NCBI GenBank assembly: GCA_014871385.1
Contig: CM026422.1
Span: 13,436,228 to 13,500,227, forward strand
DNA from: Ceratodon purpureus
Taxonomy: Eukaryota > Streptophyta > Bryopsida > Pseudoditrichales > Ditrichaceae
Length of the DNA: 64,000 nucleotides
Direction: 5' to 3'
In this document: piece after piece, positions 1 through 35,427 of the stretch
Numbering within the stretch: position 1 is the stretch's first letter
Layout of the letters: each line of letters begins with the position of its first letter
The notes under the pieces: model-generated
The model's input: the letters and a program-made list of their open reading frames with translations, nothing else
Databases searched by the model: none
Told to the model about the DNA's origin: nothing
Made by a program: the position numbers and the translations under genes

Positions 1-135
1 GCGAGCGGGTATGGGGGGCTCGAGCGGGTATGGGGGGGGGGGGGGGGGGGGGGGGGCGCGAGCGGTTCAGGTGAGGTGCGCAAGCGGGTATGGGGGGCGC
101 GAGCGGGTTCAGGGGGGGGGGGGCGCGAGAGGGGT
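1..135. repeat. GC-rich CGCGAGCG minisatellite block
   Basis: Irregular repeats of GCGCGAGCGGGT and similar words separated by runs of G, including one run of about 25 G. In copy 2 the equivalent block (32,934-32,990) lies at the promoter side of the RING-like gene, so this block probably marks the start of an unseen leftward gene. Confidence 0.85.
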
Positions 136-531
136 CCCCCCTTAAAACAAACTCTATTTCCTTAGGAGTACCATTGAAGAAGGTTGGAAGACAATAATAA
201 AAACAAATGCAATGGATTTTTTCAACCATTTCTCTCTAAAATAAAATTAAAAATTAAAAATTAAAATGGGATATGAAAATAAGGAATACTGATTTGAATA
301 ATTTGAAGATGAGAAATCAAATTATAGAAAAACAATCATGACTATAATAAGGGACTCGGGATAAAAAGGGATGAATAACATGGGATGAAAGAAGTTATCA
401 AGATGAATAAATGTCCTGGTGGTTAGAAACCTGAAATATCCCATAACGGAATACTGATCTAATGCACCATGAATAATATAATGTTGACTACAAGAAAATT
501 AGTGTATTAATATTAGAATAAAATAAAAAGA
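136..531. other. AT-rich spacer between GC block and tandem array
   Basis: AT-rich sequence with no convincing ORF on either strand. It leads into the 211-bp array and contains diverged words of the repeat unit. It is probably part of the intergenic region between the RING-like and kinase-like genes of the hAT element. Confidence 0.6.
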
Positions 532-2190
532 ATAGCATGGTGAGGAAGAGAGTTCGATTAGAGTTTACAAAAATAAAAAATATAATGCATTGAACATATG
601 GATCCTACAATGCTCTAACATATAATTAAAAATATAAAGAATCATAAACAAGGGCTCGATGCAATTGGTTTGGCATATAAACGGAAAAAATAAAATCAAT
701 AGCATGGAGTGGAAGAGATAAAGGGAATAAAATAAAAAGAATAGCATGGTGTGGAAGAGAGTTCGATTAGAGTTTACAAAAATAAAAAATATAATGCATT
801 GAACATATGGATCCTACAATGCTCTAACATATAATAAAAAAAAAAGAATCATAAACAAGGGCTCGATGCAATTGGTTTGGCATATAAACGGAAAAAATAA
901 AATTAAATCAATAGCATGGAGTGGAAGAGATAAAGGGATTAAAATAAAAAGAATAGCATGGTGTGGAAGAGAGTTCGATTAGAGTTTACAAAAATAAAAA
1001 ATATAATGCATTGAACATATGGATCCTACAATGCTCTAACATATAATTAAAAATATAAAGAATCATAAACAAGGGCTCGATGCAATTGGTTTGGCATATA
1101 AACGGAAAAAATAAAATTAAATCAATAGCATGGAGTGGAAGAGATAAAGGGAATAAAATAAAAAGAATAGCATGGTGTGGAAGAGAGTTCGATTAGAGTT
1201 TACAAAAATAAAAAATATAATGCATTGAACATATGGATCCTACAATGCTCTAACATATAATAAAAAAAAAAGAATCATAAACAAGGGCTCGATGCAATTG
1301 GTTTGGCATATAAACGGAAAAAATAAAATTAAATCAATAGCATGGAGTGGAAGAGATAAAGGGATTAAAATAAAAAGAATAGCATGGTGTGGAAGAGAGT
1401 TCGATTAGAGTTTACAAAAATAAAAAATATAATGCATTGAACATATGGATCCTACAATGCTCTAACATATAATAAAAAAAAAAGAATCATAAACAAGGGC
1501 TCGATGCAATTGGTTTGGCATATAAACGGAAAAAAATAAAATTAAATCAATAGCATGGAGTGGAAGAGATAAAGGGATTAAAATAAAAAGAATAGCATGG
1601 TGTGGAAGAGAGTTCGATTAGAGTTTACAAAAATAAAAAATATAATGCATTGAACATATGGATCCTACAATGCTCTAACATATAATTAAAATATAAAGAA
1701 TCATAAAGAAGGGCTCGATGCAATTGGTTTGGCATATAAACGGAAAAAATAAAATCAATAGCATGGAGTGGAAGAGATAAATGGAATAAAATAAAAAGAA
1801 TAGCATGGTGTGGAAGAGAGTTCGATTAGAGTTTACAAAAATAAAAAATATAATGCATTGAACATATGGATCCTACAATGCTCTAACATATAATAAAAAA
1901 AAAAGAATCATAAACAAGGGCTCGATGCAATTGGTTTGGCATATAAACGGAAAAAATAAAATTAAATCAATAGCATGGAGTGGAAGAGATAAAGGGAATA
2001 AAATAAAAAGAATAGCATGGTGTGGAAATACGTAGGATTACAGTTTAATAACATAAAAAATATAATGCATTGTACATACGGATCCTACAATGCTCTAACA
2101 TATTATAAAGAATCATAAATAAGGGATCGACGCAATTGGTTTGGGAGATAGACGTTTTACAACTAAATCAATAGCATGGAGTGGAAGAGA
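532..2190. repeat. AT-rich tandem array, ~8 units of 208-214 bp
   Basis: The word ATAGCATGGTGTGGAAGAG recurs at 532, 741, 953, 1,167, 1,379, 1,592, 1,800 and 2,012, giving periods of 208-214 bp. Each unit also holds a second related word, ATAGCATGGAGTGGAAGAG, so the unit carries an internal duplication. Units are nearly identical except the last (2,012-2,190), which is diverged. Degenerate inverted relatives lie at 32,045-32,860 in copy 2, so the array belongs to the hAT element. It sits between two divergent genes. Confidence 0.95.
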
Positions 2191-2343
2191 GGCTAGAGCT
2201 GCATGAGAGGTTGTGCAAGTATAAAATCCCAATACTTTGTATTTTTTAATTTGTTTTATTTTATTTTTTCTCTTAGAAAGTAGTGTAGAGATTTCACTAT
2301 TTCCAGAAGAGAAATAGAAAATAAAAAATTAGTTGGAAAACAA

Positions 2344-2517
2344 ATGGAAGGGGGGGGGCGCGAGCGTGTCTGAGGGGGCGCGAACGGGTTGGGGGGGGGC
2401 GCGGACGGGTATGGGCGCGAGCGGGTACAGGGGCGCGAGCGGGTGGGGGGGGGGGCGCGAGCGGGTACGGGGGGGCGCGAACGGGTATAGGGGGGGGGGC
2501 GCGAGCGGGTCCGTGGG
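2344..2517. repeat. GC-rich CGCGAGCG minisatellite block upstream of kinase-like gene
   Basis: Repeats of GGGGGGCGCGAGCGGGT-like units, G-rich on the plus strand. It ends 3 bp before a TATA box. The counterpart in copy 2 is at 31,938-32,035. Several runs of at least six G make G-quadruplex formation possible (inference). Confidence 0.9.
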
Positions 2518-2520
2518 GAC

Positions 2521-2527
2521 TATATAA
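2521..2527 (+). promoter_or_regulatory. TATA box of the kinase-like gene
   Basis: TATATAA directly follows the GC block and lies about 160 bp before the ATG at 2,684. Copy 2 has the same arrangement (TATATAAA on the minus strand at 31,913-31,920). Conservation of both the box and its spacing from the GC block supports a core promoter. Confidence 0.7.
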
Positions 2528-2683
2528 GGTGGGGAGAAGCTCTCGCCCCCCTCACTCCTTCCCACTGCGGCTCCTTGTCCTGACGTGTGAAAACACGCCT
2601 TGCTTGGAACTGCTTATGTGGGAAGTCTTCATTGGGGCGGGGGGGGAAGTTGTTGAATTTTTTTTTCAGGGATTTACTTTGCG

Positions 2684-4263
2684 ATGTCTTCTAGACAAGG
2701 CTCCGGCAAGCGGCCTATGTATGTGGACTTGGATGCTCCAGATGCGGTGGACCCTATGAGTTGCGTAACACCTCGTGGTTCTAGTGGTTCTACTCCTTCA
2801 TCTAGCTCGAAGGGTAAAAAGAAGAAGAGTATACCAGCGCACGAGAAGGATGACGGTTATCCACCATTGGAGTATACGCATTTCATCAGGAAGGTGGCCG
2901 TCGAGTACTACAAGGCCCGTACCATACGAATGTTGAAGGCAATGTACCTTGATCACGGAGAGAATGGTATCTACAACCTCCAACGTGATTTGGAAAGGGA
3001 ATTTTGGAGCGCATTGGAAGGATCAGAGATGTACATGGATTGCAAGACGAAGTATTTTCACAGCCCGAAGTGGTTGACACAACAAGTGAGTAGTGCTACG
3101 ACAAATGTCATTCATGTGTTTGAATCACATGTCAAGAAACCACAAGGCGAAGAATGGAGCAACCAAGACAAGTGTTTATTCAAAAACTGACAACGGTTCA
3201 GGAGGCATGTCAGAGATGTTCTAAGGGGAAAACAAAGATTATGCCTTGGAATGAGCAAGCATTGAACTCAGCATTGGAAGCACACATGTATGGTGCATTG
3301 ATATGGATTCCGGTTACGGCCAAGGTTGTGCCATTATCTGGCTTCAATGCCGAGGGGGGGTATGGCAAAGTGCGAAAAGTGCGAATAGCCAATATGAAGA
3401 AAATTCCAATTCACATAGAATTTGCGGGAAAACTTTCCAAGGCTAAAACCGAAGTGAAGAAGCGAGAGGAACGGGCGATTGAGGCCACGGTTAACCCCGT
3501 AGAGCATCCGGGTGTGATAAAATTTTGGGCCATTCACGCTAAGACCATGGAAGCTTATACCCTGTGGTGGAATGGAGATTGCCTCCGCAACTTCCTCAAG
3601 ATAAATGAGAAGGCATCCGAGGCAATAGATTACAAAGAAATTTTGAAGTCGAGGGATATGCCCATGGAAGAGTGCCAAAGAATTGTTGCCTACCGAAAGA
3701 ATCGGGGAATGTTGGCGTGGAGTCTCATCTACGTTATGGACATAGTCCATAAGGCTGAAATCCTCCACAACGACTTAACGCCATCCAACATTCTACTCCA
3801 CTTTCCACCTCATGACAAGAATAAAGTATATATTGGTGTGTGCGATTGGGGTGTGGCAAGCAGAGTCATTGAGAACAAGGCCTCCCCTTATGGTGTGATG
3901 GACCCCATTGAACTTGTACAAGTAAAGGAGAGGAGGGTAGGAGTTGCACCGGAGTTGTTCTTTTTATATGGCAAAAAAGATGATGAGGAACGGAATTTGG
4001 AGCGCATGAAGAGGATGCATCCATGTACGACGCTATCTGATGCATTTTCGGTAGGCCATTTGGCAAAGAAGATATGGAGAGAAGAAGATTGCCCAGAACT
4101 CTTCAAGGATTCAATCTCAAAGATTGTATTCTCATCAAAGTTGGATGGCTTGCTTAACGAAGATCCTACAAAGAGGCTTTCACTTGCAAAAGTTGTGAAT
4201 GATTTGATGAGCCCCCCTTACAACTTCCAAGCTCCCAATGGTTGTTTTAGATACACATTGTAG
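2684..4263 (+). CDS. Transposon-borne protein-kinase-like protein (one frameshift)
   Basis: The start MSSRQG is conserved in copy 2 (31,732). The N-terminal ~160 residues are a basic, Ser/Lys-rich linker and a domain I do not recognise (EYTHFIRK ... DLEREFWSALEGSE ... YFHSPKWL). A kinase-like domain follows: Gly-rich loop AEGGYGKV, possible ATP lysine in FAGK, catalytic loop HNDLTPSNILL (HRD-like), DWG in place of DFG, APEL, and SDAFSVG matching the kinase D-x-x-S-x-G motif. The two halves lie in different frames (2,684-3,190 and 3,154-4,263). Alignment with copy 2, which is continuous here, shows a 1-base deletion near 3,170. The element therefore originally encoded about 526 residues. Catalytic activity is plausible from the motifs but unproven. 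The cargo may be captured from a host kinase (inference). Confidence 0.75.
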
Positions 4264-4487
4264 TTCCATAGTGAATTACGTTTGGAACATTTTGATTGCC
4301 TATGTGGCCTTGTTTGCACATTTCGAATATTTTAATAAATCGTTTTTTTCGGCGTATACATGCCTTGGTGGAACATGAAATGGTATTGTTGGTTTTGTAA
4401 TGGAATGAAAAATTGTTTTTTAAAAAAAAATGAAAAAACTGTATGGCCCATTCACCGGGACTGCCCCTCGTACAAGGGTGCCTCCCC

Positions 4488-4905
4488 CCTAACCCGCTCG
4501 CGCCCCCCCCTCTGGAAGCTCGCGCCCCCCCCCCTTCCAGAAGCTCGCGCCCCCCCTCTGAGAAGCTCGCGCCCCCTTTGCAGTAGGTTGCGCCCCCCCC
4601 CCTTGAAAAAGCTCGCGCCCCCCCTTGGAGAAGCTCGCGCCCGCCCCCTTGGAGAAGCTCGCGCCCCCCCCCCCCCTTGGAGAAGCTCGCGCCCCCCCCC
4701 CCTCGGAGAAGCTCGCGCCCCCCCCCTGTTGGAGAAGCTCGCGCCCCCCTGGAGAAGCTCGCGCCCCCCCTGGAGAAGCTCGCGCCCCCCCCTGGAAAAG
4801 CTCGCGCCCCCCCCCCTGGAAAGAGAAGCTCGCGCCCCCCCACCTGGAGAAACTCGCGCCCCCTGCACACGCTCGCGCCCCCCCGCCTGGAGAAACCCGC
4901 GCCCC
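4488..4905. repeat. GC-rich minisatellite block, GAGAAG-spacer type
   Basis: About 17 units of CTCGCGCC-C(n) with the spacer TGGAGAAG, C-rich on the plus strand. It fills the space between the kinase-like stop codon and the transposase promoter. The counterpart in copy 2 (22,103-22,470) has the same AGAAGCT spacer in inverse complement. Long proline- or glycine-rich open frames across it are by-products of base composition. Confidence 0.93.
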
Positions 4906-4915
4906 CCCTCACAAG

Positions 4916-4922
4916 TATAAAT
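4916..4922 (+). promoter_or_regulatory. TATA box of the transposase gene
   Basis: TATAAAT lies about 10 bp after the GC block and 200 bp before the transposase ATG. Copy 2 has the same GTATAAATG context at 22,091-22,099 on the minus strand, again directly beside its GC block. Confidence 0.65.
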
Positions 4923-5068
4923 GCCACCAAATTAGCCCAAGCCCAATATCATTTGAAATCATGGCCTCTAGTCCCGGAACTCCTTGTGGGCTCCTTGCTT
5001 GAGACTATGTGCATCACATTGGCCTGTGGTTGATGTCTACACATACCATTTTTTTCTCACATGTGTCA

Positions 5069-5083
5069 TACTAACACTTGCAG
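5069..5083 (+). promoter_or_regulatory. 5'-UTR intron branch point and acceptor of transposase
   Basis: A perfect TACTAAC branch-point word (5,069-5,075) is followed by CAG at 5,081-5,083, just upstream of the ATG at 5,120. The same words occur in copy 2 near 21,930-21,945. The transcript probably has a short non-coding first exon after the TATA box at 4,916. Confidence 0.55.
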
Positions 5084-5119
5084 ACAGGAGATCATTGTAC
5101 TTTTTCAGAGACACGGAGA

Positions 5120-8100
5120 ATGGCAGGTCAACAGCGTCAGTCGACGGCTGAGTGGGCTCCGTGGTGGACGTTCATTGATAAGGACCATGTGAAATGTGTG
5201 TGGTGCAATTTCACCTTTCGTTATAAACGACAAAGAGCTTTCAAGCACTATGGATGGGGTGAAGGTTCAAGCAAGAGTCATTGTACCAAGGCCCCCGCCG
5301 CCGTATTTAGGCGCTTTGCCAATTGTGGTAATGTAATACCAAAAAGAATGACACATGCGGAGATATACGGCACTGATGGTGGTGATGGCGAGGCACACTT
5401 GGCACACTTGGCACCATGTTCAAGCCAGTCTATGCCTGCTGAGCAATCTACGGAAGTGCCTCAGAGAACGGAGGAGGTCCAAGAGGAGAGGATTTCCCAA
5501 GTTCAACCGTCTCAGTCAACTCCGCCTATAAGCAGAGGCGATTCATGTACACCAAGATCTATGCGGCAACAAAGTTTTACCGAGGCCTATCAGATTGGGA
5601 TGCGCAATGAATTGGATGAGAAATGGGCGTCCTATTTTTACGAAGCGAATGTGCCTTTCAATGTGGTTAGACATCCATCTTTTATCGCTGCTGTGGAGGC
5701 AACATCGAAAGCGGGTTTTGTGTACCGTCCACCAGCATACAACGCAATGCGAACCAAGCACATCCAGCCAACAAAGCAGCTTCTCAAGTTGAGAATAGAG
5801 GAGAAAACGAAGCAGTGTATTAGCTTGTACGGGGCAACTATTTGCTCGGATGGATGGGACAACGTTGTTCATCGGCCGTTGATGAATGTCATGCTTGTGT
5901 GTCCAACAGGAGATATATTCCTGGGTTCCATTGATACAACGGGGTACAAGAAATCAAAGGCATACATAGCTGGGAAATTGAAAGAGTACATCAAAGAAGT
6001 TGGACCGCAGAATGTGGTACAGATTTGCTCCGACAACGCTAGTGCGATGTTGGGAGCCATGGACCAGGTGGTTGAAGCTTATCCTCACATTTACAAGCAA
6101 GGTTGTGCAGCTCACATCATGGACCTCTTACTAGAAGATTGGGGGAAGGAAGCAACCTTCAAAGAGCTGATTGCCTTGGCAAAACGCATACCAAATTTTA
6201 TACGTCGCCGTCATGTCACCATGGCTTTGTTTCGCCAATTCAGCCCGAAGTTGTCTCTGTTGTTACCAGCGGAGACAAGATTTGGATGCTCGTACTTGAT
6301 GATTGTTCGATTGCTTGAACTGAGGGAGGCACTAATCCAGGTGGTAGCCAGTCCGAAATGGGATGAATATGTGGGTACTTTATTCAATCGGTCAAACGGT
6401 TATCGAGCTCACACCTTAGCATGTCAAGTACGGAGTACCATTCTCGATGAGACATTTTGGTTACGTTGTGAGAATCTTGTGCATGTTATGAAGCCGGCTG
6501 TTGTGACCTTGAAGACATTTGATGGACAAACACCGGCAATGGGGAGGGCATGGTTGGCCATGAATAATTTGAAGAAGCATGTGTTCCGTCTACGGGGTGA
6601 TCCTTTTTTCCTAGACCCCGCTATAGGAGATCGCTTTGAGAAACATTTTACGAAGAGATGGAAGATGATGTTGACAGATCTCCATTACGCAGGCGCCATT
6701 TTGAATCCCTACATTTTCCCGGAGAGCCACGAGCTATTGACTAACAGTGCTGCGAAGCGTGCACTCCTGCAAGTGCTAATTCATTTGAGTGAGTGCCTTA
6801 AACTGGACCACGATACTGTGTTGTTCGAGCTAACACAGTTTGAGGAACGCACCGGTCCATTCAGCCCAATGGAGGCCCCAAACATTCGACAGACTAAGAT
6901 GCTACCTCATCAATGGTGGCAGCGGGTTGGGGGCGATGCGTTACCGTTGATAGCAAAGCGCATCCTTTCGTTAACATGCTCGGCATCATCATGTGAGCGA
7001 AATTGGAGCATGTATTCCTTTGTTCACAGTAAGGTTCGCAACCGATTGGCCGTGAAGAAGGCAGAAGACTTGGTGTACATTTACACGAACAGTAAGCTCC
7101 TTCGAGAACGACGTGGAGCGGATCCTGTTCTTTGGTACGAGAACCAACCGTTCTCCGAAGACTCGGATGAAGAAGTGCCAGCCATGTACGATGAAGACGT
7201 ATGTGATGATGATGGAGATGAAGGATTCCACGACGGACTTGAAGTTAATGAAGGCGATGGTGATGACGGTGGAGTTCATTACACTCCTGCTACTATGGAT
7301 GATGAGTATCCAGAGTTACCCGTGGACAATGGTGATGGTGACATGCCACGCACTGAACCCGTTAACCAGCCGAATGGAGTTTTTGACTGGGCAGGATTTG
7401 ATGAAGAGGCAGCTACTTCGCCTCACCACGTTGTCAATGAAATACAAGCTAGAGGCGAGGTCGCATACGATCGGGCAGACGATGATATTGACGATGAATT
7501 TGAAGTCGAAATGACTCAGCATCAAAGCGACGATGGTGGCAATAATGATGACATTTACCCCGTTCGTAGCGTTTCGAACAATGACAATGAAGAAGGGGGG
7601 TAACAACATGGGAGAGCAAATTCCAATTCCAGAAGACGTTGAGGGAGGAGAAGAAGTTGAACAACTCCAGGCCACTCTGCCAGTAAATGTTGAGGAAACA
7701 ATCAGGTCTGGAGGTTTGGATGAAAGCCCTCCAAGAAATGAACAATCCGAGACAGTCAGAAATGGAGAAGAAGATGAAATTCCTATTGGCCGATTGTTTC
7801 AAACACCCCTGCCCCAGAGTACACCTTCAATCGGAGCAGTACTTGCAGGGTTGGGTCGACCCCCTCCACCTCGTTCAAACACTTCTACTGGGCATGGTTC
7901 ATTAACTCCAACACCGAATACAAGCATTCCACTCACTTCTTCTGGACAAAGTCTACCAGCTGGACCTTCTACGACGCGTCATGGAGTGATACGGTCACGG
8001 AAAGGTCCAACAAACGTTCGCCCTTTTTTTTCAGGATATACTGTTGGAACTACCCCGTCTGTACCTGTGGCTCTGGGTAAACGTAGATTACCCGTAATGA

Positions 8101-8405
8101 ATGTGGACGGAATCACCGATAAGACCAAAAGACGGAAGATCAAAAGAATTGTGACCACAGTGGTGGATGGTACAGTTGACCACGAAATTCGCAACATTCA
8201 TTCCACGGTGGAGGAGTATGTGCCTAATCAGGGGGGAGATGGAGATGACGAGGGGTCGAAATCCTCAGAAGGATATTACTCATCAGAAGATAGCCGTGAA
8301 GAAGCACCTGATGATGAAGACATTGTTGTAAGAGTACCATTGGGTAAGCCCGGTACTCGAAGGAATCCAGAGCGGCGCACCGCCAAAAAAAACAAAAAAA
8401 AGTGA
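5120..8405 (+). CDS. hAT transposase with BED-like finger, DUF659 and C-terminal extension (frameshifted)
   Basis: Start 5,120 (MAGQQRQ) matches the copy 2 start. A BED-like zinc finger has C26-x2-C29 and H54/C55. A DUF659/RNase-H-like core follows, with acidic residues in CSDGWD (about residue 240) and CSDNAS (about 300). The C-terminal hAT dimerisation region has SSCERNWS (about 625), giving a D-D-E set typical of hAT enzymes. A strongly acidic tail starts near residue 675. The first frame stops at 7,603 right after a run of six G (7,595-7,600). Copy 2 has five G there and reads straight on into QIPIP-DVEGGEEVEQLQ, so copy 1 carries a +1 frameshift. The ~290-residue extension (7,604-8,405) with a basic KRR patch near its middle belongs to the same protein. 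It should act in the nucleus, cutting and rejoining hAT ends. Confidence 0.9.
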
Positions 8406-8493
8406 TACATCTATTAGCATATTACATATAGAAGTTATATAGAGAAAGTATAATATATATGTCTCCAAAATAATTTTAAAAAAACACAAAAAA

Positions 8494-8548
<55 letters not shown>
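8494..8548. repeat. (AT)n microsatellite
   Basis: An uninterrupted TA dinucleotide run of about 55 bp just after the transposase reading frame. Copy 2 has only a short counterpart near 18,170-18,180. Confidence 0.9.
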
Positions 8549-8550
<2 letters not shown>

Positions 8551-8721
8551 AAATTTTATACGTAGATACTTATATGTTAACCTTAGTCAATGTCCATAAA
8601 ACATTAGCTAAGGCTATTGAATGTAATTTTGTTTCGACATGAATTGAAACTTCTCTCATTTATGTCACTATGAAAAATTCAGTAGTGTCTTAATTTCCTT
8701 CAGTGGTTGATTCTTGTTCCC

Positions 8722-8985
8722 AGCTCGCGCCCCCCCTTCGCAGGCGCTCGCGCCCCCCCTTCGCAGGCGCTCGCGCCCCCACCCCAAACCCCTTGCTCGC
8801 GCCCCCCTGCAATCGCAGGCGCTCGCGCCCCCCCACCATCAAAGGCGCTCGCGCCCCCCCCCTCGCAGGCGCCCGCGCCCCTCCCAGTCGCTCGCGCCCC
8901 CTCGCTCGCGCCCCCCTTCCCAAGACGCTCGCGCCCCCCCTCTCACGTGCTCGCGCCACCCTCACTCAAGGCGTTGGCGCCCTTC
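8722..8985. repeat. GC-rich minisatellite block, GCAGGCG-spacer type, subterminal
   Basis: Units of CTCGCGCC-C(n) with the spacer TTCGCAGGCG, C-rich on the plus strand, lying about 200 bp inside the right terminus. Counterpart in copy 2 at 17,735-18,000. Confidence 0.92.
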
Positions 8986-9094
8986 CTCTTAGCCACGTCA
9001 TCCCCCAAGTCAACAATATTTGGTGACATGTCAGACGCGTGGCATCCTAGGTGGCCAAGGTAACTCCCATTTCACCATTTGGGTGGTCAACCGT

Positions 9095-9187
9095 AAGTCC
9101 TGGTCAAACGGACCTCCCCTGACCCCTAACGGACGGACGAGCGGACCGGACGGACGGACAGGTCCTTTTGTCCCATGAACAACCCTG
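9095..9187 (+). repeat. Right terminus of hAT copy 1 with GGAC-type subterminal repeats
   Basis: Short GGACGGAC/CGGACC repeats (about 9,131-9,161) precede the terminal CATGAACAACCCTG. Both features recur at the two ends of copy 2 (17,519 onward and 35,360-35,419). Clustered subterminal short repeats are known transposase-binding sites in hAT elements; that role here is inference. Confidence 0.8.
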
Positions 9188-9966: not shown

Positions 9967-9967
9967 T

Positions 9968-10901: not shown

Positions 10902-10907
<6 letters not shown>

Positions 10908-10937
<30 letters not shown>

Positions 10938-14125: not shown

Positions 14126-14137
14126 TAAACGTTTTTC

Positions 14138-22090: not shown

Positions 22091-22099
22091 ATTTATACT
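22091..22099 (-). promoter_or_regulatory. TATA box of copy 2 transposase
   Basis: GTATAAATG on the minus strand, next to the GC block at 22,103. It mirrors the box at 4,916 in copy 1. Confidence 0.6.
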
Positions 22100-22102
22100 C
22101 GG

Positions 22103-22470: not shown

Positions 22471-22489
22471 AATGGGCCATACAGTTCAT

Positions 22490-22490
<1 letters not shown>

Positions 22491-22532
<42 letters not shown>
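22491..22532. repeat. Poly-T tract of about 42
   Basis: Homopolymer T between the GC block and the kinase-like 3' flank. Copy 1 has only a short A run here (4,422-4,430), so it expanded in copy 2. The true length may be uncertain in any assembly. Confidence 0.85.
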
Positions 22533-22674
22533 CATTCCGTTACAAAACAAGCAATATCATTTTATGTTCCACAAGAGCACATAGCCGTCAAAAAAAGATT
22601 TATTAAAATTTTAGAAACGTGCAAACAAGACCACATAGGCAATCAAAATGTTACAAATGTAATTCACTAAGGAA

Positions 22675-23818: not shown

Positions 23819-23845
23819 TTTTTACATGTGGTTTAAACACATGAA

Positions 23846-23857
23846 TGACATTTGTCG
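23846..23857. repeat. Target-site duplication, left side of Mutator-like element
   Basis: TGACATTTGTCG, repeated exactly at 31,304-31,315. Copy 1 has one copy of this sequence inside the uninterrupted kinase-like gene (near 3,100, inverse complement), which proves duplication on insertion. The true TSD may be 9-12 bp. Confidence 0.88.
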
Positions 23858-24438
23858 CAGGAATGCTATCTTGTGAGCAGCGAGCAGGAGCAGTGAGCAG
23901 GGAGCATTGAATTTTTTTTTCGATTTTTTTGATTTTTTTGATATTTTTTTCCGATTTTTTTTTCTTCGCAAAATAATACAGTGTGTATTACCGCGGAATC
24001 TTTAAAGAATCTTGAGAGAATATTTAGGATAAAATCTATGAAGATTCTAGGAATATTCTTTCGACAGAAAGACCTCAAACCAAATGTAACCAAATTCAAA
24101 GAAAAAACAAATTTGAATTCAAAAAATTGTAGCAATGGCTACTAAATTTAATTACACCAGTAATTTACAAAAATGGGTCACAATAGATGATGTGAATAAA
24201 TGACCATCTACTCTATTCATATATAGATACGGTCTAAGATTAATACTATATAAAATGCAGTCCAACATACATGCTCATGTAGTATGCGCTACGATATCAA
24301 GGTATATCTAAGTAAAAAATCTAAAGAACACACAAAATCTGAAATACAGGCCTAGAAATGATCTCAATGCATATGAAAACCCTCACTATCAAAGATATCA
24401 CTATCTTTTATATAAATAAGGATATCCTCACTATCACC

Positions 24439-26140: not shown

Positions 26141-26399
26141 ACACAGCTTCTATGGTCTTCTCCTACTCTAGATACTCCTTCTGCTTGTTGAATTTTCCTC
26201 CCTTCCCAAGTATTTCCGGGTAGCCTTAATTGCAGATTCTCTGGCTTCTGACAAGAACAAATTTCTGAATGTCAATTATGACGCCCTGGAAGCCCGGTTG
26301 AGGAATCTGAAGACCGTCTTCTTCGATGATATTGGAGTACAGCTTTCCTGCTTCTTCCTCTAGTTGCAACAAAACCAACAAGATTTGCAGAAATCAGTC

Positions 26400-27140
26400 C
26401 CCCCAATTTGCACTCTCGGATCCGAAAGTACCCTCGACACACCATGAATTTTTCTTTAGAGGCCTCAAATTATTAGCGAGAACGAGAAAACTCAAAATAC
26501 TTGAGGAAAAATCAATCCCCTCTTTATGCACTCTTGGATCCGAAAGTACCCTGGACACAACATGAATTATTCTCTAGAGACCACTAATCATGACCGGAAA
26601 TGACAAATCTGAAAATGCTTGAGGAAAATCAGCCTCCCCCATATGGACTCTCGGATCCGAAAGTACCCTGGATACAACATGAATTATTCTCTACAGACCA
26701 CTAATCATGACCGGAAATGACAAATCTCAAAATGCTTGAGGAAAATCAGCCTCCCCCATATGGACTCTCGGATCCGAAAGTACCTTCGACACACCATGAA
26801 TTATTCTCTAGAGACCACTAATCATGACAAAAAATGACGAATCTCAAAATGCTTGAGGAAAATCAGCCCCCCCCATATGGACTCTCGGATCCGAAAGTAC
26901 CCTGGACATACCATGAATTATTCTCTAGAGACCACTAATTCTGACCGGAAATGAGAAATCTCAAAATGCTTGAGGAAAATCAGCCTCCCCTATATGGACT
27001 CTCGGATCCGAAAGTACCCTGGATACAACATGAATTATTCTCTACAGACCACTAATCATGACAAAAAATGACGAATCTCAAAATGCTTGAAGAAAAATCA
27101 GCCTCCCCAATATCGACTCTCGGATCCGAAAGTACCTGTG
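26400..27140. repeat. 117-bp tandem repeat, 7 units, with CTCGGATCCGAAAG core
   Basis: The word CTCGGATCCGAAAG (one unit CTTGGATCC) recurs at 26,415, 26,533, 26,649, 26,766, 26,883, 27,001 and 27,119, a period of 116-118 bp. Units end with CATGAATTATTCTCTAGAGA-like and AATCTCAAAATGCTTGAGG-like words. It lies within the MULE. Confidence 0.95.
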
Positions 27141-27551
27141 GAGATGGAATTATTTTGATAAGAAATGGAATAATGCAAGTGAAACTCACGCCTGCGTAGA
27201 AGGAAGCAATTTCCACTCATAGTGGAAGGGCGGTAGTTGAGCAAGGGGTCTTTGGGAAGTTGTTGGCCTATCGTCGATCCTTGCTCATATTCCACCATTT
27301 TAACCACCGTTGCTTGTATTGGGCTAGAACTTTAGCCGTCGCTATGCACTGAATTTTTTCAGGAAGCATCTCCGGATTTGACATGTTGCAGTTGTAATCG
27401 GCAATAATCTGTCCCAAAACAATAAAAAATCAATATTAGAAGCAATTTTTTCCTAAAATATTAGTTTAATTAGAAACTTCCTTAAATATACGTAAATATC
27501 TTGTAGAAACCAGGATTTAGTGGAGCTTTTTAAGAACTAAAGAGAAAAATG

Positions 27552-27790
27552 CCATCCTACAAAAGTACTCTCGGATCCAAAAGTACATTGGGCTGTCTAT
27601 ACATTCTTCTAAAGTAGAGAGCTTTGCCACACTGAATAGATGAATTTCTAGTACTACAAAAGTACTCTCGGATCCAAAAGTACATTGGGCTGTCTATACA
27701 TTCTTCTAAAGTAGAGAGCTTTGCCACACTGAATAGATGAATTTCTAGTACTACAGAAGTACTCTCGGATCCGAGAGTACATCGTACGGT
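27552..27790. repeat. 97-bp tandem repeat with the same GGATCC core
   Basis: CTCGGATCC recurs at 27,569, 27,666 and 27,763 (period 97). The unit differs from the 117-bp repeat except for the GTACTCTCGGATCC core, so the core was amplified in two different contexts. Confidence 0.92.
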
Positions 27791-28210
27791 ATAGATAGTT
27801 TGCTACACATAGAAGAGTTGACGTACCTCATTGATGAATCCCTCGCCATTTGCGGGGTCAGCGATGGCAAGCAATCGATCCATATTGGTGTGCAGGCCTT
27901 ACTTGCAAATTGCAATAACTTTGTAATGATGTATAATTTGTCCAAAAATAAAAAGATTTCAGGATTTGTAGCCATTTCATGCGCCGGAAAAGCATAGCAA
28001 CAAGTTAAATTTACCAAGATATTCTTTAAATATTTTCATTTTATGCTGCAAAGTGAAAGATAGAGGAAAAAAGCAGGTACTACAGAAGTACTTTCGGATC
28101 CGAAAGTACACTGTACGATATAAACAATTTTCTAAATAATTAGCAAAGTCATATCTCATTGATGAATCCCTCGCCATTTGTAGTGTTGGCGATGGCAAGC
28201 ATTCGTACAT
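27763..28210. repeat. ~327-bp direct repeat spanning a possible exon end
   Basis: The segments 27,763-27,890 and about 28,090-28,205 are related (GTACT-TCGGATCCGA..., then CATTGATGAATCCCTCGCCATTTG). On the minus strand this encodes QMARDSSM followed by a possible donor (GAG|GTAC), so a gene segment was duplicated inside the MULE. Confidence 0.7.
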
Positions 28211-29058
28211 TTGTCATTGTCACCGTCCTACACAATGTAATATCCAACTTTCCAATAGGAGCCTCCATTGATTGGTTTAGAATGATGTGTGAGTTGCCAA
28301 CACGATTCTTCCACAGTTTCTATACCGTCACGTGAACTCCAGGGTCTTTTGTAGGTTCTTCATCTTTTAGATCTCTCTTGATATCCATGGGGATGTATTA
28401 AGATTCATGATGTATCAACAAACCTAACATAAAAATGTCATTTTACCATTTCTATTCAATTCAAAATTTAGTACATATAACCTGCCTAAAACCTTTGGTG
28501 GATTGCCAGGTCATTTTATTCATTCATATAATTTTTTTGGTTACAAATGTGCATCTTTTTGTTAAAAATGTGCATCCTCAAAAGGGCTCTCGGATCCGAA
28601 AATCCCTTGAGGTGGGACTCAATTTTGCTCATAGTTTAGAATATGGATGAAAAAAATGGCCTGATTTTTTTTTTCTTCAAGATATGGCTTGTTATATGTT
28701 TTTGGAAAACTCTCATTTAAGGCTTTCCAATGATATATTACAATATATATTTGGAAAAATCTCCATGTGTAGTGCCTATTTTTAAAATAAAGGAGGGGAG
28801 GTAGAGGCATATGCCAACACCTGAAATGTTCTTGGAATCTAAGAAGGGGTCAAGTCTTGTAAATATTTTTGAAAAATAGTGGAGATGAAGGTGGCCTTTG
28901 GATTTCAATGGAATAATGCCATAAATGATTTTAGATCTTTAGAAGTGTGAAGGTATCTTAAGTGTGATGATATTTAAAGTATGTTGTTATATGTTCTTGA
29001 TGTTGGTAATAGACACAAAGATTTTCTACATGATATTATATCACACGCATTCTCTTGA

Positions 29059-30415
29059 TTGCCTATACAAAACCTATTGCTAGACAAGAGAGTGGACATG
29101 CCGTCGTGCAACCTAAGAGAGACTATACATAACAAGTGGCTTCAACAGTCCCAAAACACGGGCGAATGTCTATACGCTGCAATTGTGGACAACATAATGC
29201 GAGCGTTTATGGAGATCACTCAATATAGAAGGTATCTAAAGGGAGGAAGGGGAGGCAAAGGACTAGACAAGGCAGAGCTCCACCTCCGTCAAGTACAGCA
29301 GAGCTTAGACCCGGAAATGATAGCTGAGGCAATGAAGGCGTATCTCGGAGCTGGAGACGTGTTAACGAAGGAGAAGGGACTTGAAGGAGTAGAGATTTTT
29401 GGCTCTATGAAGAGGAAGCTTGATCTTCCTCCTAGTTTAACCCATGACTTTTGCTGCTCTCATAAGGTCAATTATTCCATCCCTACGATGGGGACTCGAT
29501 CAACAAGGGCACGGGCGGCGGATCCAGGAGGCTCTTTCGGATCCAACGTGTCGTGTACAGCACACCACGTCTGTTCAGGAGTCGGAGTGCAATTTATTCG
29601 AGTGGCACATTGCTCGCCTTTCAAATTGATCCGAACGAAAACGTCAAGCGCTTCAGGCGCAGACTCGTACGAAGTGTAACGCTAAGATCTCGAAGGAAGC
29701 TCAGGGTATAGCGACACCTATATATTCCGGACACAAGAAGGATTATCACACCAGACGCTTGACTGTAGCAGAGTTTTGGTTCTGCTCTGATGATATCAAC
29801 CAATGCGTGAAGGAGGGTCCTAAGTCATTTGTTGTGGATTGGCCGGAAATTCCTATGGTATGGCCAGTCAAAATAGGAACCAATGTCACTTGATAGGAGG
29901 TACTCTCCCTGGAAGAAGCGGGTTTCCAATGGCAACAGTGTGGCGCTCTATCACCATGCCGCCAATTCCAAGCAAATTCGAACTGGCCTCTTCTGAGATA
30001 CCATTTCAAGGCACCAGCAGATCCTAATGCACACCTACGCTCCGAGGTGAATATTCCATTCGCAGGAACTCTGATGCCCCAACTGTGGAGCATTGTAACA
30101 AGTGGGAAAGCACCGCTGTCATGGACCATTGCGGTATTACATGGATAACAACTATTCTGTATCCTGGATATGGTTGTGTTGTTACCCTTAACACGGGAAG
30201 GGGCATGCTATACCGCATCACCATTGGGTGCTTTCCGGAATACACTTGCCTAGATTTCATCAAGATGCTTTCGGAGACTCTAGGGAAAAACAAGCAATGG
30301 AAATACTGCAAATATATTTATTATGTTATTCGGTACATGTGCAAGATGGATCCTAAAGAAGACTCCTTCATGCACGCTCCGAGTTAGAGTTTCAACGAGG
30401 TTATGGAAATCCTCA
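29059..30415 (+). pseudogene. MULE transposase C-terminal remnant with decayed SWIM finger
   Basis: Plus-strand traces resemble the C-terminal half of plant MULE transposases: DMPSCNLRETIHNKWLQQS, a GGRGGKG linker, VEIFGSMKRKLDLPP, then after several frame changes HLRSEVNIPFAGTLMPQLW, RITIGCFPEYTCLDF and KWKYCKYIYYV ... MDPKEDSF. The last part is a SWIM zinc finger (C-x-C ... C-x-H) in which the first Cys is Tyr and the His is Tyr. Each change is one G-to-A or C-to-T transition. The DDE catalytic half should lie upstream (28,400-29,050) but is not recognisable. In-frame stops occur near 29,894 and elsewhere. Confidence 0.7.
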
Positions 30416-30748
30416 AACGAATGGGTGCCTTTTGAAGAATTATTCAGTTATAAACGAATGGGTGCCTTTTGAAGAATTATTCAGTTAGTAGCCTCCTAGT
30501 GGACAATAGGTTAACCGTTACTATATCAGCAGTGTTTTGTTCTGGATTGGATTTGTCTTGATTTGAATTGCAAAAAATAAAGATGATATTTTTATATGCC
30601 ATTATATACAATCAAATTAGGTGAGTTTTTTTCCACAATAAAATAGAAATCTCTCTCTGTCCTTCATCTCTATGACAAATAACTCCAATTTTCCGGTGAG
30701 AAAACTCAACAACATATCATTGAGTTTACTTGAATGTCTGTCCTCTAG

Positions 30749-30943
30749 AGGTGTATTTCAGATCCGAGGGTCTCCTTCAGGCACAGCCAAATGGACTCTC
30801 GGATCCGAGATACACCTCCAGCATTGCAAATCCAACTATGTCTTTAGGAAAAAATTCGATGCGCTGGAGGTGTATCTCGGATCCGAGGGTCCCCTTAAGG
30901 CACAGCCAAGGGGACTCTCGGATCCGAGATACACCTCCAACGC
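30749..30943. repeat. Two hairpins built on CTCGGATCCGAG palindromes
   Basis: Two related segments (30,749-30,820 and 30,861-30,943) each begin with GGAGGTGTATCTCGGATCCG-like sequence and end with its inverse complement, enclosing GGCACAGCCAAGGGG-like loops. Arms are about 22 bp. The second hairpin is nearly perfect and would fold strongly as RNA or single-stranded DNA. Confidence 0.9.
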
Positions 30944-31263
30944 ATCAAATTTTTTCTATTTAAAAAAATTAATATTAAAAATTTCAGTAAATTTCGTTAA
31001 AATAGGGTAAAAAATCATTTTTAACCAATCTTCATTTCAATAAAATCAGTGTATATATGATCAGTTTTTTTTAACTTCTATATTTAGAATTTTTGACAAA
31101 AATATCCTGAAAACCACGAAAATCCACGGTGATAGGTCCTTTACTAATTTTAGTAATTTCTCTCCTATTTCATAAAAAATTCCCAAAATTTCCGAAAACT
31201 TGTCAAAAAACGAAGCCTTTTTTCAAAAAAAAAAAAAAAAAAAATCGTCAAAAACGCCTCCAC

Positions 31264-31297
31264 TGCTCTCTGCTCCTGCTCGCTGCTCACAAGATAG
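31264..31297. repeat. Right terminal inverted repeat of the MULE
   Basis: Inverse complement of the left TIR at 23,864-23,897, with GCTATCTTGTGAGCAGCGAG reading inward and 29 consecutive identical bases. GAGCAG is repeated within it. Confidence 0.88.
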
Positions 31298-31303
31298 CTT
31301 CGC

Positions 31304-31315
31304 TGACATTTGTCG
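31304..31315. repeat. Target-site duplication, right side of MULE
   Basis: TGACATTTGTCG, identical to 23,846-23,857. Confidence 0.88.
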
Positions 31316-31317
31316 TA

Positions 31318-31732
31318 GCACTGCTAACTAGTAGTGCTAACCATTTTGGACTATGAAAATACTTCGTCATGCAATCCATGTAGTCCTCTGACCCTTCCAA
31401 TGCGCTCCAGAATTCCCTTTCCAAATCAGCTTGTAGTTTGAGGATCCCAACTTCTCCGTGATCGAGGTAATTTGTCTTCAACATTCTTATTTGACGGAGC
31501 CTGTAGTACATGACGGTCACCTTTCTAATGAAATGCGTATACTCCAATGGTGGATAACCCTCATCCTTCTCATGCCCTCAATGTTCTTCTTCTTCTTCTT
31601 TCCCTTAGAGCTAGATGAAGGAGTAGAACCAGTATGCGATTCAGCTCTTACACAATTAATAGGGTCTACCGCATCTAGAGCATCCAAATCTTCATAGAGA
31701 GGTCGCTTGCCGGCGCCTTGCCTAGAAGACAT
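31318..31732 (-). pseudogene. Kinase-like gene of copy 2, 5' portion
   Basis: The start MSSRQGAGKRPLYEDLDALD at 31,732 aligns with copy 1. The Lys-rich linker (KGKKKKK) is followed by a frameshift near 31,560, after which EYTHFIRKVTV ... DLEREFWSALEGSEDYMDC continues in another frame to the MULE insertion. It defines the translation start of this gene independently of copy 1. Confidence 0.85.
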
Positions 31733-31764
31733 CGCAAAATAAAATCCTGCAAAAAAAAATCAAC

Positions 31765-31773
31765 AACCCCCCC

Positions 31774-31804
<31 letters not shown>
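31765..31804. repeat. Poly-C tract
   Basis: About 40 bases, almost all C, in the 5' UTR of the copy 2 kinase-like gene, where copy 1 has a short G run (2,638-2,647). Length is likely unstable and may be misassembled. Confidence 0.8.
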
Positions 31805-31912
31805 TTTTAATGAAGACTTTCCCCGTAAGCAGGTCTAAGCAAGGCGTCTTTTCACACGTCATGACAAGGAGCGGCTGTGGAAAGGAGTGTGGGGGCGAGA
31901 GCGTCTCCCTAC

Positions 31913-31920
31913 TTTATATA
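31913..31920 (-). promoter_or_regulatory. TATA box of copy 2 kinase-like gene
   Basis: TATATAAA on the minus strand, 15-20 bp from the adjoining GC block. Mirrors 2,521-2,527. Confidence 0.6.
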
Positions 31921-31937
31921 GTGGGTGGAAATCATAG

Positions 31938-32035
31938 ACGCTCGCGCCCCCCTCCCCCCCCCCCCCTCGCGAACCCGCTCGTGCCCCCTTGCATCTGCTC
32001 GCGCCCCCTTCTTGAATCCGCTCGCGCCCCTCCTC
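31938..32035. repeat. GC-rich CGCGAGCG minisatellite block
   Basis: C-rich on plus: CGCTCGCGCCCCCC, GAACCCGCTCGTGCCCC and similar words. Counterpart of 2,344-2,517 in copy 1. Confidence 0.9.
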
Positions 32036-32044
32036 TAAGATTTT

Positions 32045-32294
32045 ATTTATGAACAATCTCTCTTCCAACCTTCTTCCATTCTATGCTGTTGATTTTAAAT
32101 TATCCCCTTTCTCTTCCAATTCAATTGTTTGTTACCTTCATAACTATTCTTTATATTTTTAATTATATGTTAGAGCATTGTTTGTTTCTTTTTTACTAAA
32201 CATATTAATGATTAGTTTATTTATCTCTCTTCCAACCTTCTTCCATTCTGTGGTATTGATTTTATTTTATCCCCGTTTCTCTTCCTATGTTAAT

Positions 32295-32328
<34 letters not shown>

Positions 32329-32860
32329 CCATCTCTTTTAATATTAATGTTTTTTTTCTTAATGTCTACCATTTATTTTTAATTCTATGTTAGAACATTG
32401 TTTGTTTATGGCATAATTCATTTTTTAATCATTCGGAGATTTATTTATCTTCCTAACTTCTTCCATCTCATGCTATTCATTCCATATTATCCCCTTTATC
32501 TTCCAATATTCATGATTGTTTTTATCCAGTGTTAATGTTTCATCTCTAAATTTTTTTGTCCATTATTCCTTATTTAATTATTCGCTTATTTATTTCTCTT
32601 CCAACTTTCTTCTACTCTACTCTATTGATTTTATAATTTTCCATGTCTCTTTCAATATTAATGTTTGTTTAGCTTTTCAATCTCTTAAAATATTTTTTTC
32701 TAACATTTCTTTTAATATCCTCCCTTTATTTTTTATCCTATGTTAAAGCATTGTTTTTTTATGGCAAACTTTCCTTTATAATCATTCAAAGATTTATTTC
32801 TCTTCCTCAAAAAAATAAAATAAATAAATAAATAAATTTTTATTTCTCTTCCAACTTGAT
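32045..32860. repeat. Degenerate inverted relatives of the 211-bp AT array
   Basis: Inverse-complement words of the copy 1 array occur at about 32,160 (ATATGTTAGAGCATTG), 32,388 (CTATGTTAGAACATTG) and 32,738 (CTATGTTAAAGCATTG). TCTCTTCCA...CTTCCATTC words correspond to GAATGGAAG/TGGAAGAGA. Unit spacing has become irregular, with a T run at 32,297-32,328. Together with copy 1 this shows the array is part of the element and was homogenised recently only in copy 1. Confidence 0.8.
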
Positions 32861-32933
32861 GTCCAGAATGTGAGAAATAAAAAAGTGGGAACCCCCCAAG
32901 AAAAGTACTGCCCTTGTTCAAGCTTCTTTACCC

Positions 32934-32990
32934 ACTCGCGCCCCCCTTCATTTCGCTCGCGCGCCTCCCCCCCCCCCCCCCCCCCCCCCT
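32934..32990. repeat. GC-rich minisatellite block upstream of the RING-like gene
   Basis: CACTCGCGCCCCCC and CGCTCGCGCG with a C run of about 20. It lies 100 bp before the ATG at 33,095, mirroring the block at 1-135 in copy 1. Confidence 0.88.
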
Positions 32991-33094
32991 TCAATACCGT
33001 AATCAACCACATAGAAGATTTATACAACCATTTGGGCGAAGTTTTGACTGTTTGGTGTGTTTTTTAACACACTAAACTTTCCCAGCACACCACC

Positions 33095-34889
33095 GTGGAG
33101 GAAAATCCACCTTCGGCATTGCCACTCAACAAGGCGGAACGAAAGCGAATCAGAGATCAGAATCGGAAGCGGGGTGGTAAGAAGATGAAGAAGCGGCTTC
33201 ACGTGTTGAACAATCCTGCAAAGATGGCATTTAGAGGTTGGAAAGACGAGCCACAACTATGGAAATATTCCACATGCGAGGAATTCATTGAGTGGTGCCA
33301 CATCACTAAACTATTTCCGCACGAGCGCCACAAAAATCACAGGACATCAGACAAGGCAAACCTCACATTTTGCCTCCAATATGCGGATTTTGTTTAATGT
33401 TGTATACAAGTTTATCAACATCTATAAAAGCAACGATGTGTCGAACGCAATGAAGTACCATTGTATGATTTGCATAATGGTGTATGCCGAGGTGGTACTT
33501 CACAAAGTGGTGGATTGGTCCACCATCAAAACCTTGAAGAGTGTTACGATGTCGAGAGAGCGTGACATTTCCAAGCAAAGGTTATTCCCAGACAGTGGCC
33601 TGGGGAAAAAATGAAGCTAAAGCCACAAGAGAGGGAGCCGGAGACATAAGAATCAGTACGTGGACATTGATGGACCATTAAGTCAAGATTCCTTGTCATT
33701 TCCAACCAATGCTCAAACGGAGGAAGTAGAAACATTGAGGAGAGCCAATGATGAATTGCGGCTTCTTGTTTCAAAGTTTGCTAAATCATACTACCAGTGG
33801 AAAGTGGCAACCATTCTCAGCGTTGATCGCGGTCGCCACATGGCAATAGAGTTCAAGATGATCGACAATGACTACTTGCAACACAACAAACGAAGGGATT
33901 TTGGCCTCACCTCATGGACTAATGCAGATGATATGTTTCTATCCAACATGCCAATGCAAGAATCGAATTCATCTCTCATAGATTGGGCAAAGTTGGATTT
34001 TGATCACGCAAACGCAACTTCGTGCCATGATCTTCAAATGAAGCCAGGAGTTGAAAGCATAAAGCTTTGGCCAAATCCTCAACCATGGGTGTTGGATGGT
34101 TCTGTCACATGTCTGGTGTGTCTAAATCCATTTGGTCCGGAGGGGGGATGGGCACTTGGATCATGTAAATACATGTTCCATCCAATGTGTTTGATTAACA
34201 TTTTTTTGGTTAGGAGATTTTGCCCGATGTGCAAATCCCCGTTCCATGAACGTTTGTACGAGGTTTTTGGACTCACTCCATACATGCCACCAAACCATGA
34301 GAGAAATCCTCTAAACACCGAGGGTGAATGTTTCCGCAATCAATGGGGTGAAGATTTGATTTGGAGTTGGCGGGCCAATACTCACACGACGTTCAAGAGC
34401 AATGTCAGTGCAATGTTGGGGTGGATGAATGAACACAAAGAAATTGTGAAGATGTGCAAGAAGATAATTGGATCTGCTCCAGGTGACCAAGGGAAGCGAA
34501 ATTTTTTCTATCAGACTTTGAATGGATATTTGGATGCAAAGAACAACCGATTCCATTTTGGTACACACCTAAAAGGCCTCGTATGGAACAAGGATGGGAA
34601 TTTGATTACAGAAAATGAAGGTTACGCCACTATGAGCGTCCGAGAGGCAGTCCAAATGTCTCTTTCAGAGTGGAAGTATCTTTTCAGAAATGAAGCTGTT
34701 GACTTTCTTCTAGAGGAATACTCTCCACAGACATTGCGTACATTGGTAGAATTGAGAAACTCGCAAATTTTGCGTGCTCTCAGTGAAACCTATGGCCCAT
34801 TCCGCCGCGGACTCGGACGAGAGCAAGGCGCACCATTCTCTTGGACGATGGAGCGGGACCAAGTGGCACGACGGAGTAGCTGCAGATGA
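33095..34889 (+). pseudogene. Transposon-borne RING-like zinc-finger protein, damaged
   Basis: A basic N-terminus (MEENPPSALPLNKAERKRIR, with KRGGKKMKKR) is followed by a frame change near 33,395 and stops near 33,612. The frame 33,660-34,889 (409 residues) then runs intact. It holds a leucine-rich helix (LRRANDELRLLVSKF) and a RING-like finger: C-L-V-C, GSC-K-Y-M-F-H-P-M-C, C-P-M-C. In the usual C-x-H-x-F-H-x-x-C order the first His is Tyr here (TAC for CAC), so one zinc ligand is lost. RING proteins often act as ubiquitin ligases; its role in the element is unknown. It is transcribed toward the right TIR, divergent from the kinase-like and transposase genes. Confidence 0.72.
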
Positions 34890-35145
34890 CTAGTAATAGT
34901 TACAAGTTAGTACTAAGCGATTAGCTTTCGTATACTGCAGTTTTTGTAATGTTTTGGTTTGAAATGGTAATGAAATACTTTTACTTTCACAAATATAGAC
35001 AACAATGCAAAGTTCATGTATGACGAGTATCTCATTTTTCCTATGCAAAATTTACACAGTTGTCATTGCGGTTAGTTCCAATATATTATTCTGATGGAAA
35101 TGTTTGTTTTTATTGCAATGTTTTTGATTTGCAATATCTACATAA

Positions 35146-35222
35146 GTGGGCCGCACCCCTGAACCCGCTTGCGCCCCCCTCGAACCCGCTCGCGCCGTCC
35201 ATGAACCCGCTCGCGCCCCCTT
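35146..35222. repeat. GC-rich minisatellite block, subterminal at right end
   Basis: Four C-rich units with GAACCCGCT spacers (CTCGCGCC-like) about 200 bp inside the right terminus. This is the fifth block of the full element; in copy 1 the equivalent lies outside the window. Confidence 0.88.
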
Positions 35223-35419
35223 TTGCGTATGTGGAATTCCCCGTTAGCGTTGGTTGTCCATGTCATCAATATGTTTTACCTTTTGGTAAGTTGTAAAAAA
35301 AACTAATCTAGTAATTTTCCTTCTCCCCTCAATGTCCGATTTTCTCCCAAGACCGACCGATCCGTCCGTCCGTTTGTGTCCAGAAATTTTGCCCATGTCC
35401 ATCCGTTATGACAACCCTG

Positions 35420-35427
35420 AAGGGGTT
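35420..35427. repeat. Target-site duplication, right side of hAT copy 2
   Basis: AAGGGGTT, pairs with AAAGGGTT at 17,511-17,518. Confidence 0.85.

Follow-up and report, generated by a model that had tools for sequence, protein, structure and literature searches.

The moss Ceratodon purpureus harbors a family of hAT DNA transposons that carry, beside their transposase gene, a gene for a protein kinase and a gene for a RING-H2-like protein. We focus here on a stretch of 64,000 bp (the window, G000:C2:13436228-13500227) of a genome of 362.5 Mb in 151 contigs, in which two copies of this element are found, and on the relatives of these copies elsewhere in the genome. To judge from their sequences, the members of the family are autonomous-looking elements, mostly of 12-13.5 kb, that have recently been mobile. 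The evidence supports the original prediction that the kinase and RING genes are stable cargo and not chance neighbors, and we consider it probable that the products of these two genes act in trans, either on silencing or on the control of the transposase. To our knowledge, most hAT elements have been described as encoding a transposase only.

The family in the genome and the linkage of its genes

The terminal sequence CAGGGTTGTTCATG has 297 exact matches in the genome, against 0 for its reversed control. Ten of the 54 listed transposase loci (those ranked 2 to 11) were fetched, C8_16.7 by one stretch only, and eight of them are complete, the other two being half fetched (C8_16.7) or partly N (C6_58.9). 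These eight complete young elements form, together with the diverged C4_17.2, a set of nine full elements; C6_6.28 is a further diverged element, the RING end of which lies beyond the 14 kb fetched. The nine span 11.8-15.3 kb (12.0-15.3 kb for the eight young ones), and all of them have the ends CAGGGTTGT...ACAACCCTG and perfect 8-bp target-site duplications (TSDs), which differ from one another and lie on four contigs. This includes C4_17.2 (11.84 kb), which is at ~95% amino acid identity. The search of the host genome for termini flanked by 8-bp TSDs, proposed with the original prediction, is positive. By its 8-bp TSDs, its short terminal inverted repeats starting with CAG and its hAT transposase with a dimerisation region, the family is assigned to the hAT superfamily.

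All three genes are intronless and mostly intact in the nine full elements, and they follow a single layout: the transposase and kinase genes point in the same direction, and the kinase and RING-H2 genes diverge from an AT-rich core of tandem repeats. The spacer between the kinase and RING genes (2.3-5.7 kb) is the source of most of the length variation among elements. This three-gene layout had been claimed for both copies in the window; it is seen there in copy 2 only, which is degraded, the RING end of copy 1 being unseen, and it holds in the rest of the genome for all eight complete young elements and for the diverged one.

The match lists are ranked and lean to the query, and the copy counts given here are lower bounds. 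The transposase search gave at least 54 scored copies, all at 99-100% identity, with frames of at least 1,109 codons in 44 of the 54 and an internal stop in five; the transposase genes of seven complete copies of equal length differ by 0-8 bases. At least 108 copies were scored for the kinase (94-100% identity, 101 without internal stop), and the search for the RING gene, made with the protein of copy 2, gave at least 99 scored places. The many near-identical full copies suggest that the element is still, or was lately, mobile. Near-identical copies could also come from segmental duplication or from an assembly error instead of transposition, an explanation to which we give practically no weight: it is ruled out by the 8-bp duplication that each of the nine elements has of its own, on four contigs, and one full element (C2_13.2) has inserted into one end of an older copy of the family. 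In that place (G000:C2:13191720-13208720), the inner TSD CCCGTCCG is found within the outer TSD TTGAAATC, so the family can target its own ends.

The linkage of the genes was counted among the matches listed. Upstream of the transposase and in the same orientation, a kinase lies at a distance of 730-926 bp at 51 of 54 transposase places and, when queries from copy 2 are added, within 20 kb at 83 of 95. From the RING side, a divergent kinase is found within 20 kb at 56 of the 99 places, whereas control arrangements give 4 of 99; 30 of the 99 places have both kinase and transposase, 26 the kinase only and six the transposase only. In one of the latter six (C10:13.76 Mb), reading the middle revealed a kinase in the expected position at 92-95% amino acid identity, with broken frames and a short piece lacking. 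From the side of the ends, a kinase is listed within 20 kb at 37 of the 86 exact termini on C1-C5, and among eight loci read around a terminus, six extend into the transposase and one (L004) matches nothing. Together with the nine full independent elements, it is the transposase-kinase and RING-kinase associations that support the stable cargo; copies with the same ends that consistently lack the kinase and RING genes were not seen.

As for the distribution of the family, contig C6, which, with 110.5 Mb, makes up 30% of the genome total, has 42 of the 99 RING places, in a list ordered by similarity to the old copy 2, against 27 of the 108 kinase places, in a list ordered by similarity to the young copy 1. 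The sex chromosomes of Ceratodon purpureus are given as ~30% of the genome in PMC13120521, and old copies may persist on C6, a probable sex chromosome.

The three proteins

The transposase has 1,094-1,097 amino acids in all eight young complete elements, and it is in two frames in C4_17.2. Two Pfam families are found over their cut-offs, PF04937 (DUF659, 7.6e-33) and PF05699 (Dimer_Tnp_hAT, 1.4e-6). Among solved structures, the best matches are chains of Hermes, weak (E 0.00028) and collinear over the catalytic core and the C-terminal dimerisation region. Of the D-D-E catalytic triad, the regions of the first D and of the final E align with Hermes, and the middle D was placed by eye only. Pfam gave no BED match in the transposase, in which a Cys/His pattern can be seen by eye at residues 26-55. 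The Hermes chain has 612 amino acids, whereas the moss transposase, of ~1,097, bears a long acidic C-terminal extension. The Hermes element makes 8-bp duplications and is not known to encode an accessory gene. With a ratio of nonsynonymous to synonymous change (dN/dS) of 0.37-0.45 between diverged members and of 0.30 against copy 2, the moss transposase sequences show the mark of selection.

The RING protein has 792 amino acids in seven of the eight young complete elements and 764 in C6_17.9. Its evolution was followed in a set of eight copies selected for open frames, including three of the eight young complete ones, the 28 pairs of which share copies and are hence not independent. All eight C3H2C3 zinc ligands are kept in the eight copies, down to 84% amino acid identity, and the best solved match is the RING of RNF24 (8.3e-7). 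The zf-RING_2 score (26.2 bits) falls just under the Pfam cut-off (27.3), and the protein is therefore labelled RING-H2-like, with a probable role as an E3 ubiquitin ligase. Across the pairs (84-100% amino acid identity), dN/dS is mostly 0.2-0.6, with a maximum of 0.82, and synonymous change is in excess at P<0.05 in 26 of the 28; against copy 2, dN/dS is 0.49. These ratios show purifying selection on the RING gene. At G000:C2:2916235-2925732, two intact RING open reading frames (ORFs) stand in mirror image with their starts ~4.9 kb apart (one gene was read), and among the matches listed there is no kinase or transposase between them; this pair is possibly a RING-RING derivative.

The kinase has 526 amino acids in seven of the eight young complete elements, its start being broken in C4_3.69, and the kinase and RING frames are both open in C4_17.2. 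Its assignment to the kinase fold is a prediction from sequence profiles: the Pfam matches are PF00069/PF07714, with PF00069 scores of 41.8 bits for the window kinase and 42.1 bits for the intact kinase, against a cut-off of 31.7, and the closest solved structures, weakly matched (E 0.0019), are the PRP4 homologue kinases. The window kinase has the motifs GGYGKV, FAGK, HNDLTPSN, CDWG, APE and SDAFSVG, among which the HND, DWG, APE and D-x-x-S-x-G motifs that had been reported for it are all present; HND replaces HRD and DWG replaces DFG. We compared 17 kinases, mostly selected for open frames; this set excludes C4_3.69, the start of which is broken, C4_16.0, which does not differ from C2_22.65, and C6_6.28. 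The residues of the ATP loop, the Lys, HxD...N, DxG and APE are invariant in all 17 open kinases of 526 codons, which suggests that the kinase is under selection.

Between C6_58.3 and C4_17.2, the synonymous divergence is uneven along the element (0.028 in the kinase, 0.085 in the RING gene and 0.04-0.07 in the transposase), and this may reflect recombination between subfamilies.

Motif arrays and the possible roles of the accessory genes

The noncoding part of the element is rich in a 12-bp motif, GCTCGCGCCCCC. Allowing one mismatch at most, it has 56 matches in the window for 0.05 expected, all of them inside the two hAT copies, which agrees with the shared spacer elements noticed originally. 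In the genome, exact matches amount to 3,662 and 3,533 (7,195 in all), against 10 and 10 (20 in all) for the reversed control, and among the first 100 places listed, 98 cluster at four loci that bear exact termini of the family and two are single. Each of the nine full elements has 40-62 matches with one mismatch at most, distributed over all four spacers, and none of the nine has a match inside any of its three genes. The strand of the motif flips once, at the upstream side of the kinase, so that the arrays point outward. The two internal spacers hold more copies than the two subterminal ones in each of the nine, and the number of copies in the arrays differs between elements.

We propose that the transposase would move the element by cut-and-paste, leaving the 8-bp duplications, and that the RING-H2 protein and the kinase would act in trans to keep the family expressed or mobile, their most likely targets being host silencing proteins, the transposase, or both, which they would modify. 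One of the proteins of the element might bind the GCTCGCGCCCCC arrays across the noncoding part, and this binding would confine the effect to the members of the family. If the accessory genes are functional, we would roughly give half of the probability to an anti-silencing role, somewhat over a third to the control of the transposase or of the timing of transposition, and a small remainder to other roles. Two considerations place anti-silencing first: the arrays are spread over all of the noncoding DNA, and the authors who described VANC and TET/JBP, to which we will come back, read theirs in this way. A more specific version is tentative, and we hold it to be rather unlikely: a two-part module of kinase and ubiquitin ligase, aimed by the element's own motif arrays, would disarm host silencing through phosphorylation and ubiquitination, unlike VANC or TET/JBP.

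Some points weigh against the stable cargo or against a role in trans for both accessory genes. Of the first kind are the 37 of the 99 RING places that have no kinase or transposase among the matches listed; of both kinds is L001, one of the eight loci read around a terminus, a deletion derivative in which the end is joined to the kinase end and the transposase is missing. The tested kinase and RING copies were mostly chosen for open frames, and the Asp of D-x-x-S-x-G is replaced by Asn in one of the 17 kinases. The changes shared among these kinases are 31 nonsynonymous and 10 synonymous (ratio 0.81, P 0.34), and neutrality is not rejected; the zero stops among these 41 changes would be expected by chance in 12% of cases at a stop fraction of 5%. 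Three pairs of diverged members give ratios of 0.64-0.81 (0.81 in pairs with C4_17.2, 0.64 with C6_6.28), and the comparison with copy 2 gives 0.65 (P 0.08). For singleton changes, the ratio is 0.59 (47 nonsynonymous and 21 synonymous, n=17, P 0.03), and when the two genes are compared within one pair, the synonymous share of the kinase is below that of the RING gene (Fisher P 0.03). The dN/dS comparison proposed originally reveals selection on the RING gene, but by itself it does not show selection on the kinase. In addition, no Pfam domain that accounts for DNA binding was found in the kinase or RING protein. As reported in PMC10368747, the BED domain of Hermes binds subterminal repeats, and by analogy, BED-type binding by the transposase could explain some of the arrays without accessory proteins.

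This last point is also in favor of the main rival, transposase regulation alone, in which the kinase and RING proteins would only regulate their own transposase (its phosphorylation, its turnover, copy number or timing) and the arrays would be transposase-binding repeats. The arrays are indeed found at both ends as well as internally, and the long acidic extension of the transposase is a possible substrate. However, the motif is in excess in the internal spacers of the nine elements, where it is not obviously needed for transposition, and we regard this restricted role as possible but unlikely.

The near-neutral shared substitutions of the kinase would also fit two pieces of host genes, picked up once and copied without function, and DNA transposons commonly capture genes. 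We nevertheless judge such a passenger capture improbable, and for the RING gene it is already disfavored by the sequence comparisons: its frame of ~792 codons and all its zinc ligands are kept at 84% amino acid identity, with the low dN/dS given above. Moreover, both genes are fixed in position in the nine full elements, one of them ~5% diverged, and are whole in most, and the main catalytic residues of the kinase are intact in the 17 open copies. Kinase and RING genes are also commonly carried by large DNA viruses, from which, or from a larger mobile element, this one could be a relic. This is very improbable in view of its hAT ends and 8-bp duplications; the window kinase and RING have no relative in 2.9 million viral contigs, in a search that reaches close relatives only, and the further ORFs of at least 150 amino acids in complete elements (150-226) overlap arrays, are antisense to the genes or lie in the center.

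Returning to the preferred reading, an action in trans on silencing or on the transposase, accessory genes in hATs and kinases in DNA transposons are already in print for fungi (PMC12730594). As described there, the hAT7 transposons of rust fungi carry a TET/JBP dioxygenase and likewise combine a hAT transposase with an accessory gene for which a role against silencing is assumed, but they make 7-bp duplications, whereas the moss family makes 8-bp ones and carries a kinase and a RING gene. The same source describes IS3EU, a fungal DNA transposon with alpha-kinase and TET/JBP genes; it belongs to a different superfamily, the opposite orientation is that of transposase and kinase in IS3EU and that of kinase and RING in the moss element, and the moss kinase is a PF00069 match (PMC12730594). 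A term search of the main text of that paper did not find RING named (PMC12730594). The three proteins of the moss element have no Pfam match to TET/JBP, nor to DUF1985 or DUF287. In Arabidopsis, VANDAL21 is a Mutator-like element. According to PMC5735166, VANDAL21, with VANC21, is also a multi-gene DNA transposon, in which VANC counters silencing in trans and its target motifs occur as tandem repeats; like the moss element, VANDAL21 has short motifs in noncoding tandem repeats, the number of which varies between copies, but the VANC protein has DUF1985/DUF287 in place of a kinase and a RING. A survey of plant hATs in 11 species is reported to have found none in the moss Physcomitrella (PMC6027215). 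A plant hAT with kinase and RING-H2 genes was not found in an aimed literature search, the incomplete coverage of which makes this absence weakly supported.

A plant hAT that keeps a kinase and a RING-H2 gene within an autonomous element would add phosphorylation and ubiquitination to a repertoire of transposon accessory genes that includes demethylases and motif-binding proteins, and the roles of both genes can be directly tested in moss. There is also a risk for annotation: kinase and RING ORFs that are whole, lack introns and recur in many copies can be taken for gene families of the host.

The two copies in the window and their surroundings

The features of the window are collected in Table 1. 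Self-comparison confirms that the two copies are mirror images of one hAT family, with ~77-88% DNA identity over the kinase, the transposase and the spacers. The span 1-35427 had been given as the family, and it has to be reduced, as ~8.3 kb of it lie between the copies and belong to neither. Common termini had been claimed too: copy 1 is closed at 9187 by an exact CAGGGTTGTTCATG, directly followed by AATAAAAC, but the terminus of copy 2, CATGGTTG, has one mismatch to the family end. The TSD of copy 2 (17511-17518 / 35420-35427, AAAGGGTT/AAGGGGTT) matches at 7 of 8 bases. To the left of copy 1, outside the window, 10 kb read N.

Table 1. Features of the two hAT copies and of the nested element (positions in the window; aa, amino acids)
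Feature	Position	Strand	Basis or remark
hAT copy 1, cut by left window edge	1..9187	+	self-comparison, terminus
Copy 1 terminus CATGAACAACCCTG	9174-9187		probable TSD AATAAAAC at 9188-9195, one side seen
AT-rich center of copy 1	516..2190	.	repeat analysis; 212-bp tandem repeat x ~8
Copy 1 kinase gene (526 aa in intact copies)	2684..4263	+	two overlapping frames; tblastn of intact protein; Pfam PF00069
Copy 1 hAT transposase gene (1,097 aa in intact copies)	5120..8405	+	two overlapping frames
GCTCGCGCCCCC array upstream of copy 1 kinase	2354..2550	.	further copy 1 array at 14-130
GCTCGCGCCCCC array between copy 1 kinase and transposase	4496..4882	+
GCTCGCGCCCCC subterminal array, copy 1	8723..8960	+
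hAT copy 2, complete but degraded	17519..35419	-	transposase and kinase on -, RING on +
Copy 2 transposase remnant	18243..21891	-	main pieces 67-84% aa identity to intact protein
Copy 2 kinase, C-terminal part, broken	22678..23873	-	comparison with intact protein
Copy 2 kinase, N-terminal part	31305..31732	-	split off by nested element
AT-rich center of copy 2	32040..32930	.	between divergent kinase and RING
Copy 2 RING-H2 gene (792 aa in intact copies), broken	33104..34889	+	RING at ~34107-34235
GCTCGCGCCCCC array, copy 2 transposase end	17757..17972	-
Other copy 2 GCTCGCGCCCCC arrays	22124-22446, 31891-32031, 32934-32945, 35167-35220
Nested unrelated transposon, 7.4 kb	23858..31305	.	inside copy 2 kinase gene; not part of hAT

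The nested element has imperfect inverted ends (CAGsrAwGCTATCTTGTGAGCAGCGAGCAGGAGCAG) and a 10-bp TSD, ACATTTGTCG. Eleven CTCGGATCCGA palindromes are found within it (23858-31305) and none in the rest of the window. A Mutator-like label was considered for this element and dropped, as Pfam gave it no support. Coding sequence related to it also sits inside the element C6_6.28.

Known RNA families and tRNAs were searched in the window, and none was found. To the right of the hAT copies, a direct repeat (40803-43496 and 58726-62159) has pieces that are 98-99% identical, with nearly identical open frames of 178 amino acids, of which the one tested has no Pfam match. Between the two copies, the minus strand holds two single-frame genes, a TauD/TfdA dioxygenase (11844-13019) and a MurG-like glycosyltransferase (GT28 C-terminal, 14831-16168), both of possible bacterial origin.

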